NCBI RefSeq assembly: GCF_002201895.1
Contig: NZ_CP019436.1
Location: 977,619 to 1,041,618, forward strand
Length of the DNA stretch: 64,000 bases
Direction of reading: 5' to 3'
Origin: Methanopyrus sp. SNP6
GTDB lineage: Archaea > JAADCQ01 > Methanopyri > Methanopyrales > Methanopyraceae
Both the position numbers and the translations under genes were made by a program. The notes beneath the pieces were generated by a model that was not told where the DNA came from, ran no database searches, and saw only the letters and a list, made by a program, of their open reading frames with translations. This document shows positions 8,042 to 40,047 of this stretch, one piece after another (the stretch's first letter is position 1; the number at the start of each line of letters is the position of its first letter).

Positions 8042-9280
8042 TCACTTGGGTCGGAACCTGAGCAGGGCTCCGAGTCCCCTGAACGCGTTATAAAACTGAG
8101 CGCCCTCTTCGGTCTCGGTTGAGATGATCTCGACGTTGGATCCCATCTGTTCGGCCAGTTCCACGTAGTAATCTACTATATCTCTGATTTCTTCCACGTT
8201 GAGCTCTGCTTCCCCACACTTCGGACACTCTTCCACGTATTTCTTCGTCTCGCCTTTCTCCTTCACCGTAACGATGTTCTTGTGCCCGCACTCCGGACAT
8301 CGTAGGGTTGCCTTGTACCCCTCGAGACCCTCGGAAACCAGCAGTACCTCTACGGCGCCCATTTTGAGGAGTTCGTCAACTTCCTCTCCATACGCCGCGA
8401 GCTCACCGTTCACAGCCTCATCCATGAATTTTCGCACGAGGCGCTTCTCCCGGACTAGCTCGGCCTCCTTAAGCGCTTCTTCTGCTTTGTTCAGGGCCTC
8501 CCGGAGCCCGGACTCGTCAGTGTTGCCGACGTCCACTACGGTGAGTACCTTTTCCTTCAGGTCCTTGGGGAGGTAGTCACCGTCCAGGAACTCCTCCTTC
8601 GTGGGACCCGGACCTCCGACGATGATCCCCTTCAGATCTTTCACGTCTTCGAAAGCCTCGCGGGCGGCTTCTCCCACCTTCTGGTAAAACTCGTGGGCGG
8701 CGTGCTCGATCAGCCGGTCGAACCTACGCTGAGATTGACCTCCGGCCTTGTGCTTGCCAGGTACGTCGGACGTTAGCCTCTTCACGGGTTCGATTCTCTT
8801 ACCCTTCACGAGACCTATTGTGGCTTCCCGGCGATCCATTACCAGAATTCCGTAGACGTCCTTCTCTTCGAGGTATTCCTTGAGGGGTTCCAGGTAGAAT
8901 TTCGAGTCACACCAGTAGATGAACCGGTCCACGGGCTCGGGCGGTTCGATCAGCTCAGCGACCATCTTCTCTTTGGTACCATCCTGGACGACACCAGCGA
9001 GAACTACGAGTCCGTTTTCCGGGGTTTCTCCGACCATCTTGAGACGCTGCATCACGACCTCGATAGCTGATTGGACGTTCTTTCGGGTGCGCTTGCTCTT
9101 GATGTTGCTGGCTTGGGAGTACTCCTCCCGCATCTGAGCGATGACGTCGCTCAGACGTTTCTCCGGTGGAATGTAAATCGTGATGAGTTCGGTGCCTTGT
9201 CCGCGCAGGTTTTCCAGTTTCTCTATCATCTTCCTGAACCTATATCTTTCGACCGTGGACGATTCGGCCAGCGTGAACAC
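8042..9280 (-). CDS. prf1: peptide chain release factor aRF1 (eRF1 family)
   Basis: About 412 aa. The N-domain stop-codon reader NIKS is at residues 59-62, the catalytic GGQ at about 180-182, and a C-terminal Cys4 zinc motif (CPECGH...CPKCGE) is present. It recognises all three stop codons and triggers peptidyl-tRNA hydrolysis. The listed GTG at 9280 touches the GGGGG Shine-Dalgarno with no spacer; a CTG at 9271 lies exactly 6 nt after GGGGTG and may be the true start (see findings). It is divergent from pyrH, with start codons only 18 nt apart. Confidence 0.95.
   Translation of the reverse strand: MFTLAESSTVERYRFRKMIEKLENLRGQGTELITIYIPPEKRLSDVIAQMREEYSQASNIKSKRTRKNVQSAIEVVMQRLKMVGETPENGLVVLAGVVQDGTKEKMVAELIEPPEPVDRFIYWCDSKFYLEPLKEYLEEKDVYGILVMDRREATIGLVKGKRIEPVKRLTSDVPGKHKAGGQSQRRFDRLIEHAAHEFYQKVGEAAREAFEDVKDLKGIIVGGPGPTKEEFLDGDYLPKDLKEKVLTVVDVGNTDESGLREALNKAEEALKEAELVREKRLVRKFMDEAVNGELAAYGEEVDELLKMGAVEVLLVSEGLEGYKATLRCPECGHKNIVTVKEKGETKKYVEECPKCGEAELNVEEIRDIVDYYVELAEQMGSNVEIISTETEEGAQFYNAFRGLGALLRFRPK
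9239..9249 (+). promoter_or_regulatory. candidate TATA box for pyrH inside the prf1 coding region
   Basis: CCTATATCTTT on the plus strand, about 55 nt before the pyrH ATG, lies inside the first codons of the divergent prf1. With the two start codons only 18 nt apart, a pyrH promoter has to sit inside prf1, and this is the best TATA-like match. Confidence 0.4.
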
Positions 9281-14961: not shown

Positions 14962-15036
14962 CCCGACATGCCCGATGAAGATCACGGCCTTCACCTGAGA
15001 CGTGACGAGATCCACCCGAGCTGAGGGGATACTCCT

Positions 15037-16290
15037 ATCCTCCGAAAGGCGGAACTCGATGACCCGCGACTCGCGCACGTACTCCGTGAGCGCGTAGCCG
15101 ACTACCCCTCGCTGCTAGCCGCCCTCCGAACACCGGTTCGGCGCTACACGCTCCGGGTTAACACTCTGAAAGCGGATCCGGAGGATGTCGTTGAATCCCT
15201 AGCCTCTGATCTTCCCGATCGAGAGGTTAGAAAGTCCCCTTACTCCGAGTACGCAGTCGAGGTTGAGGTGAAAGGACCGTACCCCGTAGAGAGGAACCAC
15301 CACGTCGTGATCGCTGACAAATTCGCGGCTGAGAGCGTCTACATGGGGGCGGATCTCTACGCTCCTGGGGTGGTGCAAGCGGATCCCGACATCCGTAGAG
15401 GTGACCGCGTGACTGTGATCTCGGAACGCGGGCACCCGGTCGCATCCGGTGAGGCAGTACTCCAGGGACGTGAGATGGAAAAACGGGACCGAGGTACTGC
15501 CGTTCGCGTCGATCGCTCCACCTTCAGTGCCCCAAAAATCCGGAAGACCGAAGCATACCGACGTGGTTGGGTGTATTCCCAAGGTCTGCCCTCCATCTTG
15601 GCCGTAGAGGCCCTGTCTCCGGAGCCTGGCGAAACCGTGGTCGACCTCTGTGCGGCTCCGGGTGGGAAGTGTTCTCACGTGGCTCAGATTACTGGCCCGG
15701 GGTCCAAGATAATAGCTATCGACCGCTCCGCACCACGACTTGAACGGATGAAAGCTCAACTCCGTCGCCTGGGTATCGACTGGGTCGAGACCGTACACGG
15801 AGACGCCAGGAAGGTCGTCAGGAGGCTGCGGGGAACGGCAGACGTTGTCCTCGTCGACCCGCCTTGCACCGCTTTGGGTGTCAGGCCGAAACTCTGGGTC
15901 GAGGCGACCTACGAGGAGGCACTCGGGCTACCGTCTTACCAGTATTCGCTACTCAGAGCCGGATACGAGGTCCTTAAGGAGGGTGGAAGACTCCTGTACT
16001 CCACGTGCACTCTCACGACCACCGAAAACGAACTCGTGGTCGAACGCGCGATACGGGAGCTAAACCTTGAGCCCGAGACGCCGGTGCTTCGACCAGCCAG
16101 ACGCTCAGGTCATGGCGCTGTCTTCCTACCCCATCGTGCGGATGTTCCTGGATTCTTCTACGCAGTACTCATTAAGGAAGGAGGGAGTCGACGTCGTGTC
16201 CGACGGTGTCATGAAGCGACGGGTAATACCGGCGATGGCGGCGGGTGTAGCCGTTGTCCTCATCATGATCTTGTCGTTCGATCCTCGTAA
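15037..16290 (+). CDS. NOL1/NOP2/sun-family m5C RNA methyltransferase with PUA-like insert; probable ATC start
   Basis: About 417 aa if it starts at ATC 15037; the first ordinary start codon (GTG 15268) would remove conserved N-terminal sequence such as YTLRVNTLKADPEDV. ATC 15037 follows GGGGAT and a 6-nt spacer. A PUA-like region comes first (about residues 75-150), then SAM motif VVDLCAAPGGKCSHVAQI, IAIDRSAPRLERM, catalytic VDPPCTALGVRP and YSTCTLTTTENE. The two Cys in PPC and TC are the family nucleophile pair. The target (tRNA or rRNA) is unknown. The tail past VLIKE overlaps the next gene by 95 nt and looks non-conserved. Confidence 0.85.
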   Translation: MLRKAELDDPRLAHVLRERVADYPSLLAALRTPVRRYTLRVNTLKADPEDVVESLASDLPDREVRKSPYSEYAVEVEVKGPYPVERNHHVVIADKFAAESVYMGADLYAPGVVQADPDIRRGDRVTVISERGHPVASGEAVLQGREMEKRDRGTAVRVDRSTFSAPKIRKTEAYRRGWVYSQGLPSILAVEALSPEPGETVVDLCAAPGGKCSHVAQITGPGSKIIAIDRSAPRLERMKAQLRRLGIDWVETVHGDARKVVRRLRGTADVVLVDPPCTALGVRPKLWVEATYEEALGLPSYQYSLLRAGYEVLKEGGRLLYSTCTLTTTENELVVERAIRELNLEPETPVLRPARRSGHGAVFLPHRADVPGFFYAVLIKEGGSRRRVRRCHEATGNTGDGGGCSRCPHHDLVVRSS

Positions 16291-17206
16291 GATCCTCACC
16301 GTAATCGCGAGAACGGAGCCGCGGCTGTTCGCGCTCGCCGCCTGTATCCAGCTAGTTGACCTACTGCTGTGGGCGCTGCGATGGCACCTAGTGTTAGTAA
16401 GAGTCGGGGTAAAGGCACCGTTCCGCCTAGTCTTCACGGTCAATAATGTCTCGATGCTCGTGAACAACATCACCCCGAGCGCCAGGAGCGGCGGCGAGCC
16501 ACTCCGTGTGTACCTGCTGGCTCGTATGGCCAGGTATCGGGCGCGTGATATCGCCTCCTCTGTCGTCATCGATAGAGTTCTAGATTACTTTCCCCTGACT
16601 TTACTACTACTGCTGAGTGCCTTCCTAATCGCGGGAAGCGGAGGAAGAGATGGAATTTTCGTCATCCTACTCGGTGGTGTGTCTTTCCTTACAGCCGCCT
16701 TGACACTGTCGCTTCGGCTCTTAGCGAGTGAGCGATACGTGCATAGGGTCGCTCGAGGGGTTCTCCAGCTCCTGTCCCGTGTATCTCGTCGCGTACGTGC
16801 ACGTCGCCGGTGGGAGGAGCTTGATGAGTGGGTGGAAAGGTTCGTGAAGCAGCTTCGAGAACTCCTCCAGGATCGTCGCACGCTGATTCAAGGTACTCTG
16901 GTATCGGCTGCAGTGTGGGGTTGTGAGATCCTCAGGACATACGTCGTGTTTTTATCGTTGGGACGCGAGGTGCCTCTACCAGTTATCGTGGTATCGTTCA
17001 CGGTCTCGATGTTCGCTGGTATCCTACCGTTACTTCCCGGTGGACTTGGGCTGGTAGAGATATCAACTGCTTCGGTTTACAGGCTGTGGGGGATCGACCC
17101 GGGAACCAGCGCTGCGGCTGCACTACTAGACAGGCTGATCTCGTATTGGATGGTGAACGCGATCGGCGTGATCAGTCTTTTACGTATTTCACGGCGAGAA
17201 AGGTAA
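16196..17206 (+). CDS. UPF0104/YbhN-family polytopic membrane protein
   Basis: 336 aa from GTG 16196 (ATG 16211 is the alternative); GGAGGGAG lies about 8 nt before the GTG. Several transmembrane helices start right after MKRR. Family hallmarks: NNITPSARSGGEPLRVY near residues 90-106 and LPLLPGGLGLVEIS near 279-292. Relatives include the membrane domain of lysyl-phosphatidylglycerol synthase and archaeal AglD-like proteins, proposed to act in lipid or lipid-linked-sugar transfer across the membrane. Substrate unknown. It overlaps the methyltransferase gene by 95 nt. Confidence 0.8.
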   Translation: MSDGVMKRRVIPAMAAGVAVVLIMILSFDPRKILTVIARTEPRLFALAACIQLVDLLLWALRWHLVLVRVGVKAPFRLVFTVNNVSMLVNNITPSARSGGEPLRVYLLARMARYRARDIASSVVIDRVLDYFPLTLLLLLSAFLIAGSGGRDGIFVILLGGVSFLTAALTLSLRLLASERYVHRVARGVLQLLSRVSRRVRARRRWEELDEWVERFVKQLRELLQDRRTLIQGTLVSAAVWGCEILRTYVVFLSLGREVPLPVIVVSFTVSMFAGILPLLPGGLGLVEISTASVYRLWGIDPGTSAAAALLDRLISYWMVNAIGVISLLRISRRER

Positions 17207-17215
17207 GGAGGTGTG

Positions 17216-17578
17216 ATGTCCTTGCCATACGAGCTCGGAAAAGTCGAGACAATTATAAAGCCGGACGACGGCGGAGTGATCTCAGCAGATATAAAAGTGT
17301 TGGCCACAGTAAGCTTGCATCGTGGTCCTACGATCATCGCGGAAGTCGATCCCAGGATAGCTGGAGAGATAGAGGAAGACGACCATGTCATCGTCGACTT
17401 ACCCTTGATACCTTCTCCGAATGAGTCCAGACCACAACCCAAAATAGTGAAGATTATTAAGGATGAGAAGCTCGTGAACCGCGTGAAGGCGGAAATCGAG
17501 AAGGAACCCGAGACTATGGTTCCACCCGTAATTCCCGGGCAGCCGACAACACCTCCACCCGAGGATATGTTCGGCTGA
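17216..17578 (+). CDS. unrecognised 120-aa protein upstream of the coiled-coil gene
   Basis: Start ATG 17216 (or GTG 17213), immediately behind AAGGAGGTG. A predicted beta-rich N-terminal domain (SADIKVLATVSLHRGPTIIAEV) is followed by a flexible Pro-rich tail (VPPVIPGQPTTPPPEDMF). I recognise no family. Codon use is more A/T-rich than in flanking genes, as in the next gene 23 nt downstream, so the two probably entered or evolved as a unit and may work together. Confidence 0.65.
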   Translation: MSLPYELGKVETIIKPDDGGVISADIKVLATVSLHRGPTIIAEVDPRIAGEIEEDDHVIVDLPLIPSPNESRPQPKIVKIIKDEKLVNRVKAEIEKEPETMVPPVIPGQPTTPPPEDMFG

Positions 17579-37556: not shown

Positions 37557-38804
37557 ATGAAGCGCGAAGCTATAGAGGTCGGTGTAGCCTACGGGAAGGA
37601 TCCGTACACGGTCGTGGAAGACGCAATGGATCAGCTGACGGGTTCCCCCAACTTCGGGTTGGTGTTCTTCTCACCCAGGCATGTCGATGAGATCGAAAGT
37701 GCTATTAGTAATGTCTCGGCAGAGTGTAGGATTATAGGGTGCTCGACGGCCGGTGAGCTCACACCGGATGGGTACACCTCGGGTACAGTCACCGTGACGT
37801 TAATTCACAGTCCGTACCTATCCGTGGAAACGAATCGCGTTACCTTCGAGCGTGAAGACCCGGAGCACGCTAAGGAGATCGGACGAAACCTCGTACTCGG
37901 AGCTATGGAGAAACTACGTGATCCCGGTCCCTGCCTCGACATCAACTTCAACACCATGCTCAGGAGCCTCAGGGAAGGGAAGCCTGTCAAAGTTCTTCCT
38001 TATTTCATGATCGAGCTAGTTGAAGGCTTAGTTCCAGCCATCGATTATTATATGGATGGCATCAACGAGGTGGCTCAGAAGTACAAGTTCTTGGAAGTGT
38101 ACGGTGGGGCGGCCGGCGATGATTTACGTCTCGAGCGTACGTACGTGCTAGAAGGACGTACATTGTGTCCCGAAGGGTCCGCTGTGATAGCGTTCGGATC
38201 TACAGCTCTCAAGATCGGCGGGGCCCTAGAATGTGGATTCGAGCCGGTGTATGAGGATAAGTTCCCGATCACCAAAGCCGTACCCGAGGAGCGTCGGATC
38301 GTGGAGTTCGACGGCGAACCCGCCGCTGAATATTACTCCGAAGTGGTGGGGGAGGACGTCGAGAGACTCGATGACTCCGTGTTCATGTGGAACCCGCTCG
38401 GATGGGAGATTTTCGGCCGGGAGATAATCGTGCGCGAGCCGGCGTTCGTTGAAGACGACGGGTCGATGGTGTTCCACTCAAGACCACCGGCGGCTGGAAC
38501 TATAATCCGACTTGAACCGACCAAGGAGAACATGCGTGAAACTGCGCGACGCGTCACGGAGCGGGCTATGAATAGAGCGGACATCCGAGGACCCGAAGAG
38601 ATAGCGCTGGTGTTGGTGTTCGACTGTGCTCATCGAGATTGTGACGAACAGCACGACGCAATCCGGGAGGTAGTGGGCGACGACGTACCGGTCGTCGGAT
38701 TCAAGACTTACGGAGAGCACGGACAACTCGAGACGGGTCCCGCCGGTCATTTTAACCAAACCATCGAGGTCGTCGTGATCGGTAGAACCCCGGTTTCTCG
38801 CTGA
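37557..38804 (+). CDS. FIST-domain sensory protein, copy 2
   Basis: 415 aa, ATG behind GGGGAA plus 6 nt. FIST_N features: NFGLVFFSPRHVDEI, RIIGCSTAGELTPDGY; FIST_C features: IVEFDGEPAAEYYSEVVG, ALVLVFDCAHRD and a final VVGFKTYGEHGQ with NQTIEVVVI. A ligand-sensing role is inferred from the fold. The ordinary FIST partner genes (chemoreceptor, histidine kinase, GGDEF) are absent nearby. It is divergent from purC and about 56 nt upstream of the DUF2117/methanogenesis-marker operon, so it may belong to that transcript. Confidence 0.82.
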   Translation: MKREAIEVGVAYGKDPYTVVEDAMDQLTGSPNFGLVFFSPRHVDEIESAISNVSAECRIIGCSTAGELTPDGYTSGTVTVTLIHSPYLSVETNRVTFEREDPEHAKEIGRNLVLGAMEKLRDPGPCLDINFNTMLRSLREGKPVKVLPYFMIELVEGLVPAIDYYMDGINEVAQKYKFLEVYGGAAGDDLRLERTYVLEGRTLCPEGSAVIAFGSTALKIGGALECGFEPVYEDKFPITKAVPEERRIVEFDGEPAAEYYSEVVGEDVERLDDSVFMWNPLGWEIFGREIIVREPAFVEDDGSMVFHSRPPAAGTIIRLEPTKENMRETARRVTERAMNRADIRGPEEIALVLVFDCAHRDCDEQHDAIREVVGDDVPVVGFKTYGEHGQLETGPAGHFNQTIEVVVIGRTPVSR

Positions 38805-38860
38805 CTCCTACCCCCGTCGTTCCCATCGTTTCGAGTGAGATAACGAAGGGGGTCTCCGAG

Positions 38861-39991
38861 ATCCGAGTAGGGCTCGTGATCCACGGTCCCACGGTTATCG
38901 ACACGGGATGGACAGAGCGTATCCTTCACTCCCTGGAAAGGCTAGGTGAGGTCCGTGCTAAGCTCGGAGGTACCACCGGTTACGTGGCGCTCTTAGATGC
39001 GAGGCTAGACTCCGTAGTGGAGTTCGATCGGAAGCTACCGAGCGAGTGCTTGTCCGATCTGAACGAGTGGGCCGACGTTCTAGTCCTCACGAACCACGGC
39101 AAAAGTCGGGAAAGCGGTCTCGCTTTCGCGGAACAGGTACTCTCCAGGGCCGAAGGCGTCGACTCGCTAGTACAGGTAGAGCGCCCGGGCGAGCCCGACG
39201 GTGGTATTGTCCTATGGAACCCTGACGACGTGGAGCGGAAGGTGGCTGAGCACCTCCAGAAGGATTTGGGGCTGGAGATCACCGAGGTTAGGACGGTTCG
39301 GACCGATAAAGGTGGCGAGACTGGAAGATCCCGTAGGATCGCCTGTGTCGAGCCAGGTGATCTCATTCTAGTGAACGGAATCACCGTAGGCGTCGCCGAG
39401 TCTCGGAACGTGGAGCTGGTGTTCGATGATAGTGGGTACTTGGTGGAGATCCGTGGCGGTAGGATCAAGCCGGAAGGCGTAGAGCGCCTCGGCCAGGTGG
39501 ATCCCGAGCGCGTGGTAGTGAAAACGGACCGCAGACTTAGGAGGACTGAGCCGAAGCGTAGGAGGGTGAAGAATGGACCCGCAAGGATCCGCCGGATTCT
39601 ACTCATCGACCACGACGCGGAGCGTAAGGTCGAGGATATGCGTCGATCGGATGCTGTCGTCTCCGTCGGTGACGATACGACTTGCGTGTGTGCGGAGCTA
39701 GGTGATCGGCTGGGAGTCTGGGTGATAGGGATCGTCGATCTCGACCCGGACGGGTGGGTTCGTGACGATACGCGCGAATCCCTGCGCGGCTCCGAGAACC
39801 TAATGGCTCTACTTGTGTGTGAGCGGGACGACGATGCCGGGGAATTGGTTCGAGAACGATTCTTTCGCGGCCGAGAGGTGAAGGTGCTCGATCCCCCCGT
39901 GACAGCTGGGGATCTCGTCGAAGAGGTGAAAGAGTGCGTAAAAGAGGTTCTCAAGTGCGTGTACCACAAGGCGAAAGAGACCTCAGCGTGA
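38861..39991 (+). CDS. DUF2117-like methanogen protein; probable ATC start
   Basis: 376 aa from ATC 38861, which lies exactly 6 nt after GGGGTC; this restores a complete first strand (RVGLVIHGP). The first NTG codon (GTG 38876) would cut it and has no Shine-Dalgarno at the right distance. N-terminal GPTVIDTGWTERIL, then a region rich in Val/Asp; the C-terminal half has VSVGDDTTCVCAELGDRLG and GIVDLDPDGW. The family is found in methanogens and has no assigned function (DUF number from memory). First gene upstream of mmp2-mmp3. Confidence 0.75.
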   Translation: MRVGLVIHGPTVIDTGWTERILHSLERLGEVRAKLGGTTGYVALLDARLDSVVEFDRKLPSECLSDLNEWADVLVLTNHGKSRESGLAFAEQVLSRAEGVDSLVQVERPGEPDGGIVLWNPDDVERKVAEHLQKDLGLEITEVRTVRTDKGGETGRSRRIACVEPGDLILVNGITVGVAESRNVELVFDDSGYLVEIRGGRIKPEGVERLGQVDPERVVVKTDRRLRRTEPKRRRVKNGPARIRRILLIDHDAERKVEDMRRSDAVVSVGDDTTCVCAELGDRLGVWVIGIVDLDPDGWVRDDTRESLRGSENLMALLVCERDDDAGELVRERFFRGREVKVLDPPVTAGDLVEEVKECVKEVLKCVYHKAKETSA

Positions 39992-40047
39992 GCTGGGTTC
40001 CTCACCACTCGGACCCGCGACTTCTCGTCATCGGTGGGGGTTCGGCC

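Follow-up and report, generated by a model that had tools for sequence, protein, structure and literature searches.

Probable AUC initiation of a DUF2117 gene, one of a set of proposed near-cognate starts in the archaeon Methanopyrus

NCBI table 11 permits translation to start at ATC, ATT, ATA and CTG, while common gene callers use ATG, GTG and TTG only. Near-cognate starts are already known in bacteria; natural cases are rare. In Staphylococcus aureus, in which only four cases of non-canonical initiation have been described, infC and ccpN start with AUA and cvfC1 with AUU, and AUA or AUU starts with an extended Shine-Dalgarno (SD) sequence give about 10% of the AUG expression in poor medium (PMC13009471). 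The infC gene of Escherichia coli starts with AUU (Butler et al., 1987, as cited in PMC9845219). In a comparison of 36 genome triplets, two AUG-to-CUG switches and one AUG-to-AUU switch were counted among 61,358 ancestral AUG starts, and AUC is absent from that account (Belinky et al., 2017; PMC5622118). In the literature searched, which lay mostly outside subscription journals, no description matching AUC or other rare starts was found for Methanopyrus, archaea or prokaryotes, nor was a genus-wide set of AUC/CUG starts in archaea.

The locus considered here lies in a window of 64,000 nt (bases 977,619–1,041,618 of a complete 1.42 Mb Methanopyrus genome, G000), which was compared with four congeners (G001–G004), giving five Methanopyrus species in all; G002 and G003 are metagenome bins, both from a single sampling project. 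Methanopyrus is a thermophilic, methanogenic archaeon. Positions are those of the window unless G000 is named. It had been proposed that a DUF2117-like gene starts at ATC 38861, six bases after a GGGGTC at 38849–38854; coordinates and translation agree, the motif being really a GGGGG at 38848–38852 followed by TC. The features of the locus are as follows.

37557–38804, + strand: upstream gene for a FIST N plus FIST C sensor-type protein (Pfam PF08495, E=1.1e-34; PF10442, E=2.5e-23)
38848–38853, + strand: SD sequence GGGGGT, 7 nt before the ATC (8 nt from the last G)
38861–38863, + strand: proposed AUC start codon for DUF2117; four species have ATC here and the fifth TTG
38861–39991, + strand: coding sequence of the DUF2117 gene (Pfam PF09890; 376 aa when counted from the ATC), with orthologues in all five species
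38876–38878, + strand: GTG, first in-frame canonical codon, rejected as start

The window reads here GGGGG TCTCCGAG ATC CGA GTA GGG CTC GTG ATC CAC GGT CCC, and the residues encoded from ATC 38861–38863 are I-R-V-G-L-V-I-H-G-P. The ATC follows the end of the FIST gene by 56 nt. The stop-to-stop frame of the DUF2117 gene opens at 38786, after an in-frame TAG (38783–38785), and in the G000 window sequence no ATG, GTG or TTG is found in frame between this TAG and GTG 38876. The distance from the last G of the SD to the ATC falls on the peak (7–8 nt) for the conserved canonical starts of the genome. GGGG-N5-9-ATC occurs 52 times on the two strands of the window, which is not above chance, and GGGG-N5-9 is equally common before ATC and before GAC or GTC, so that the motif alone proves nothing and the evidence has to be comparative.

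In the aligned DNA the GGGGG is identical in all five Methanopyrus species, and it is followed at the start column by ATC in G000–G003 and by TTG in G004, while 42 of 77 relatives from other records carry ATG exactly at the ATC column. In G003 an in-frame TAA stands at codon –7 and the next canonical codon only at +41, so that a canonical start there would lose the conserved HGP...DTG region. At least one orthologue (G003) has therefore no usable canonical start, the codon at the orthologous start column differs from AUG by one base, and the SD lies at the spacing of the genome's other starts. Codons 2–5 differ between species in a mostly synonymous or near-synonymous way (CGA/AGG/CGG; Val/Ile; GGG/GGC), which indicates that they are translated. 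The original prediction, by which homologues should share the RVGLVIHGP strand, was borne out by the alignment of their N-termini, in which the strand is kept and most sequences begin with ATG at the ATC column. With a probability of about 0.9, the start of the DUF2117 gene is AUC 38861, a near-cognate codon used through the ordinary Met-tRNAi and one case of a habit of the Methanopyrus lineage.

The protein itself belongs to family PF09890 (E=5.6e-99; score 331.6 bits, curated cut-off 25; profile positions 1–324 of 325), with profile position 1 aligned at residue 5, counted from the ATC. It has the N-terminal strand of the family followed by HGP..(I/V)(I/V)D(S/T)G; H8, G9, P10, D14 and G16 are invariant in 33 DUF2117 sequences, and G4 and V6 recur in almost every homologue. 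In the AlphaFold model strand 1 comprises residues 2–8 (pLDDT 95), so that GTG 38876, which corresponds to residue 6, would begin inside the strand, in agreement with the earlier claim. The Rossmann-type fold also claimed is supported only in part: alpha and beta elements alternate in the model, which includes this first strand, but a fold search, aimed also at the function of DUF2117, matched no solved structure at E <= 0.001, and a PDB sequence search gave nothing below E 0.05. At the other end of the gene, a C/D-box sRNA, sR28 (Rfam RF01136, above gathering score), is located at 39981–40035 on the – strand, where it runs antisense to both the last part of the DUF2117 gene and the region in which an AIR-synthase-like gene starts.

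It is very unlikely that GTG 38876 is the start and that the conserved bases upstream are leader only. In G000 and G001 no canonical codon comes earlier in the frame than this GTG, and a short AGGG stands 3 nt upstream of it; it had been noted that no SD lies at a suitable distance. The codon is however GTC in G002 and G003, the latter offering no canonical codon before +41, and a start at this position would halve strand 1 and is at odds with the synonymous evolution of codons 2–5 and with the ATG at the ATC column of the relatives. A GTG 2–5 codons downstream, present in each of G000, G001 and G002, would be a possible weak alternative.

An equally slight probability is given to an AUC read cognately by tRNA-Ile, by which the protein would begin with isoleucine. 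A tRNA-Ile (GAU) is among the tRNA genes, but the CUG and UUG at homologous columns would each require another tRNA, and only one initiator-type tRNA was found, encoded by one gene that is identical in the five species, with a CAU anticodon, A1-U72 and three G-C pairs in the anticodon stem (5' end re-read). The initiation factor aIF1 is present in all five species and is similar to that of other archaea; neither a special initiator tRNA nor a loss of aIF1, both looked for in the five Methanopyrus species, was found. As tRNA and factor both look ordinary, we infer near-cognate initiation by the normal Met-tRNAi. The initiator tRNA gene (G000 397095–397175, – strand), the 5' end of which was misplaced by ARAGORN, apparently has a C at position 8. 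C8-to-U8 tRNA editing is known for Methanopyrus, and the C8 appears to be in line with it.

A start at another non-canonical codon upstream (CTG 38801, ATC 38831 or the ATA 38840 region) is even less probable. Such codons are present in the open frame of G000, but the G003 stop at codon –7 and, in G004, a TAA at –12 together with the TTG at the ATC column argue against them, the residues encoded there vary among the Methanopyrus species, and only 38861 agrees with the SD spacing. Draft genomes do carry single-base errors, yet four genomes, each assembled on its own and one being a complete chromosome of 1,694,969 bases, share this ATC, with intact frames and mostly synonymous codon changes, so that a misread ATG or a decaying pseudogene is extremely improbable. 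No better placed is a frameshift of the ribosome that would fuse DUF2117 to the FIST protein encoded upstream. A 19-nt overlap of the two frames in G000 speaks for it, but the G003 DUF2117 frame is closed by a TAA downstream of the FIST stop and the two frames no longer meet.

If AUC 38861 is the start, the strong GGGGG SD would hold the 30S subunit so that the AUC comes to lie in the P site, where the ordinary Met-tRNAi (CAU) would read AUC, and in other genes AUA, with a third-position mismatch, and CUG with a first-base mismatch. The DUF2117 protein would then begin Met-Arg-Val-Gly-Leu-Val-Ile-His-Gly-Pro. Judging from sequence, initiation in vivo would take place at this AUC by near-cognate pairing in the P site, with insertion of Met and a lowered yield. 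In another archaeon aIF1 destabilises non-AUG mRNA complexes (PMC6237735), and this effect, together with the yield reported in S. aureus (PMC13009471), makes a reduced yield likely in Methanopyrus. At its conserved starts Methanopyrus employs ATG, GTG and TTG in near-equal numbers, and it would further rely on AUC, CUG and now and then AUA for a small fraction of its genes. Tentatively, and at somewhat less than even odds, the start check could be relaxed in Methanopyrus by changes in tRNAi modification, aIF1 or the ribosome, so that AUC and CUG would be ordinary for about 2% of genes, housekeeping enzymes included, and kept throughout the genus; Methanopyrus would then be the first among archaeal lineages to have an enlarged set of start codons.

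Further near-cognate starts were surveyed in 464 kb of G000, or roughly one third of its length (bases 100,001–300,000 and the window with its 100-kb flanks), against the matching stretches of G001, G002 and partly G003. There, 438 genes have a G002 orthologue, and 362 of these were tested for starts; genes with a conserved coding region lacking a usable canonical start, or with a near-cognate codon at the start column, were inspected in the congeners. The codons at conserved SD-led starts are unusually even in use (ATG 89, GTG 87, TTG 94), and eight genes among the 362 (~2%) appear to have near-cognate starts. The assertion that AUC initiation is a real habit of the organism thus holds for a minority, roughly 2% of the conserved genes in this third of the genome, and extends to CTG and ATA. 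The second ATC case said to lie in the window, given without a location, most likely refers to ATC 15037 of an RsmB/F methyltransferase gene. As a control, 218 genes of a Methanothermobacter-like pair (G006/G028) were put through the same extension test, which gave no real case; in an apparent one in G006, a truncated-looking gene, a CAG of the relative is replaced by an in-frame TAG.

A strict-rule automatic scan recovered only part of the cases along with many unrelated codons, and automatic picking of the start column from SD strength and conservation boundary was too often one codon off to give a clean codon table; for this unreliability the case list rests on manual inspection of filtered candidates. 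Several of these were dropped: k3499 and k1608, with ATG or GTG directly before the ATC/ATT; k2629, with an SD-led GTG/TTG; hemC (k796), in which ATC/ATT is ambiguous against a GTG at +2; k2321, with a TTG at +2; and k983, k770, k2050, k666 and k3155, which are unsupported ORFs. Also dropped was k2388, a FwdB-like frame broken by a conserved TGA, which is not a start problem. Around G000 155,640–155,680 (L105), a formylmethanofuran-dehydrogenase-like frame is interrupted by a TGA that immediately precedes a conserved HGPSVL and is shared by G001 and G002; this TGA is likely a selenocysteine codon.

The other near-cognate genes, the first three entries in window positions, are the following.

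15037–16290, + strand: RsmB/F-type m5C methyltransferase with PUA domain, ATC start, the other ATC case in the window
15023–15030, + strand: SD sequence GAGGGGAT of the RsmB/F methyltransferase gene
8042–9271, – strand: archaeal release factor aRF1, CTG at 9271 (ATG in G001, TTG in G002–G004)
G000 1,047,889, just outside the window: THEP1-like NTPase (PF03266), CTG start in 5/5 species
G000 231,834: argD, CTG start in 5/5 species
G000 111,377: DUF2096, ATC start in 4/5 species (G004 has GTG one codon upstream)
G000 125,687: radical-SAM/DUF512-like gene, ATA in G000 and ATC in G001–G003
G000 148,861: small protein with a weak POR match, ATC in G000 and G001, GTG in G002 and TTG in G003 at the same column

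In the RsmB/F genes of G000 and G001 an in-frame TGA precedes the ATC by 5 codons, and a canonical start follows only after 77 codons; G002 and G003 lack this ATC but have a different one, located 8 codons further upstream and separated by 7 nt from an SD match, GGGG TGAT. The THEP1-like NTPase has no canonical codon upstream in frame, and the next one is 17–93 codons downstream. In argD, an in-frame stop lies two codons upstream in 4/5 species, and the next canonical codon, at +11, is past conserved residues, while the radical-SAM/DUF512-like gene of G001 has a TAA 10 codons upstream and its next canonical codon at +21. Both the small protein and aRF1 have an in-frame GTG three codons upstream, but within the SD itself. 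The G001 aRF1 gene, which starts with ATG, is 96% identical; the CTG, ATG and TTG at this column amount to a start-codon switch inside the genus.

Two further observations concern the window. A sequence resembling a C/D-box sRNA at 14971–15026 (+ strand) reaches into the SD region of the RsmB/F gene, where it ends; it matches sR47 best in Rfam, with 30.9 bits, which is less than the gathering score. Other Methanopyrus species have recognisable C', guide and D stretches of it, so that one leader may serve both an RNA-modification guide and an RNA methyltransferase gene. At 17077–17574 (– strand), four Methanopyrus species share a conserved region, with 36/44 residues identical, that lies largely between two opposite-strand ORFs; it has no Pfam match and no clear start, and could be a small gene or an RNA.

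Since gene finders as a rule accept only the three canonical codons, Methanopyrus proteins are probably truncated or mis-started in databases; canonical-only calling would cost the RsmB/F enzyme 77 residues and the THEP1-like NTPase about 90. This is a warning that start annotation by codon only fails in some lineages, and, with its many near-cognate starts, Methanopyrus offers a natural archaeal system for studying start-codon discrimination by aIF1 and tRNAi.

Compared with the known systems, the GUG and UUG starts of prokaryotes are, as would be those of Methanopyrus, non-AUG codons read by the same Met initiator tRNA, but switches to near-cognate codons are rare in the triplet comparison (PMC5622118), against about eight near-cognate starts in 362 Methanopyrus genes. 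With E. coli infC (as cited in PMC9845219), the set shares a near-cognate ATN start in a housekeeping gene; infC is however a single autoregulated gene, whereas the Methanopyrus set shows no link to a start-selecting factor and belongs to an archaeon with aIF1. The starts of S. aureus are bacterial, controlled by IF3, of the AUA/AUU type and proven by ribosome profiling and reporters, whereas those of Methanopyrus are AUC/CUG and derived here by comparison. In both, conserved near-cognate codons are combined with a strong SD placing the ribosome, and bacterial infC, ccpN and cvfC1 are the best parallels to the Methanopyrus starts.
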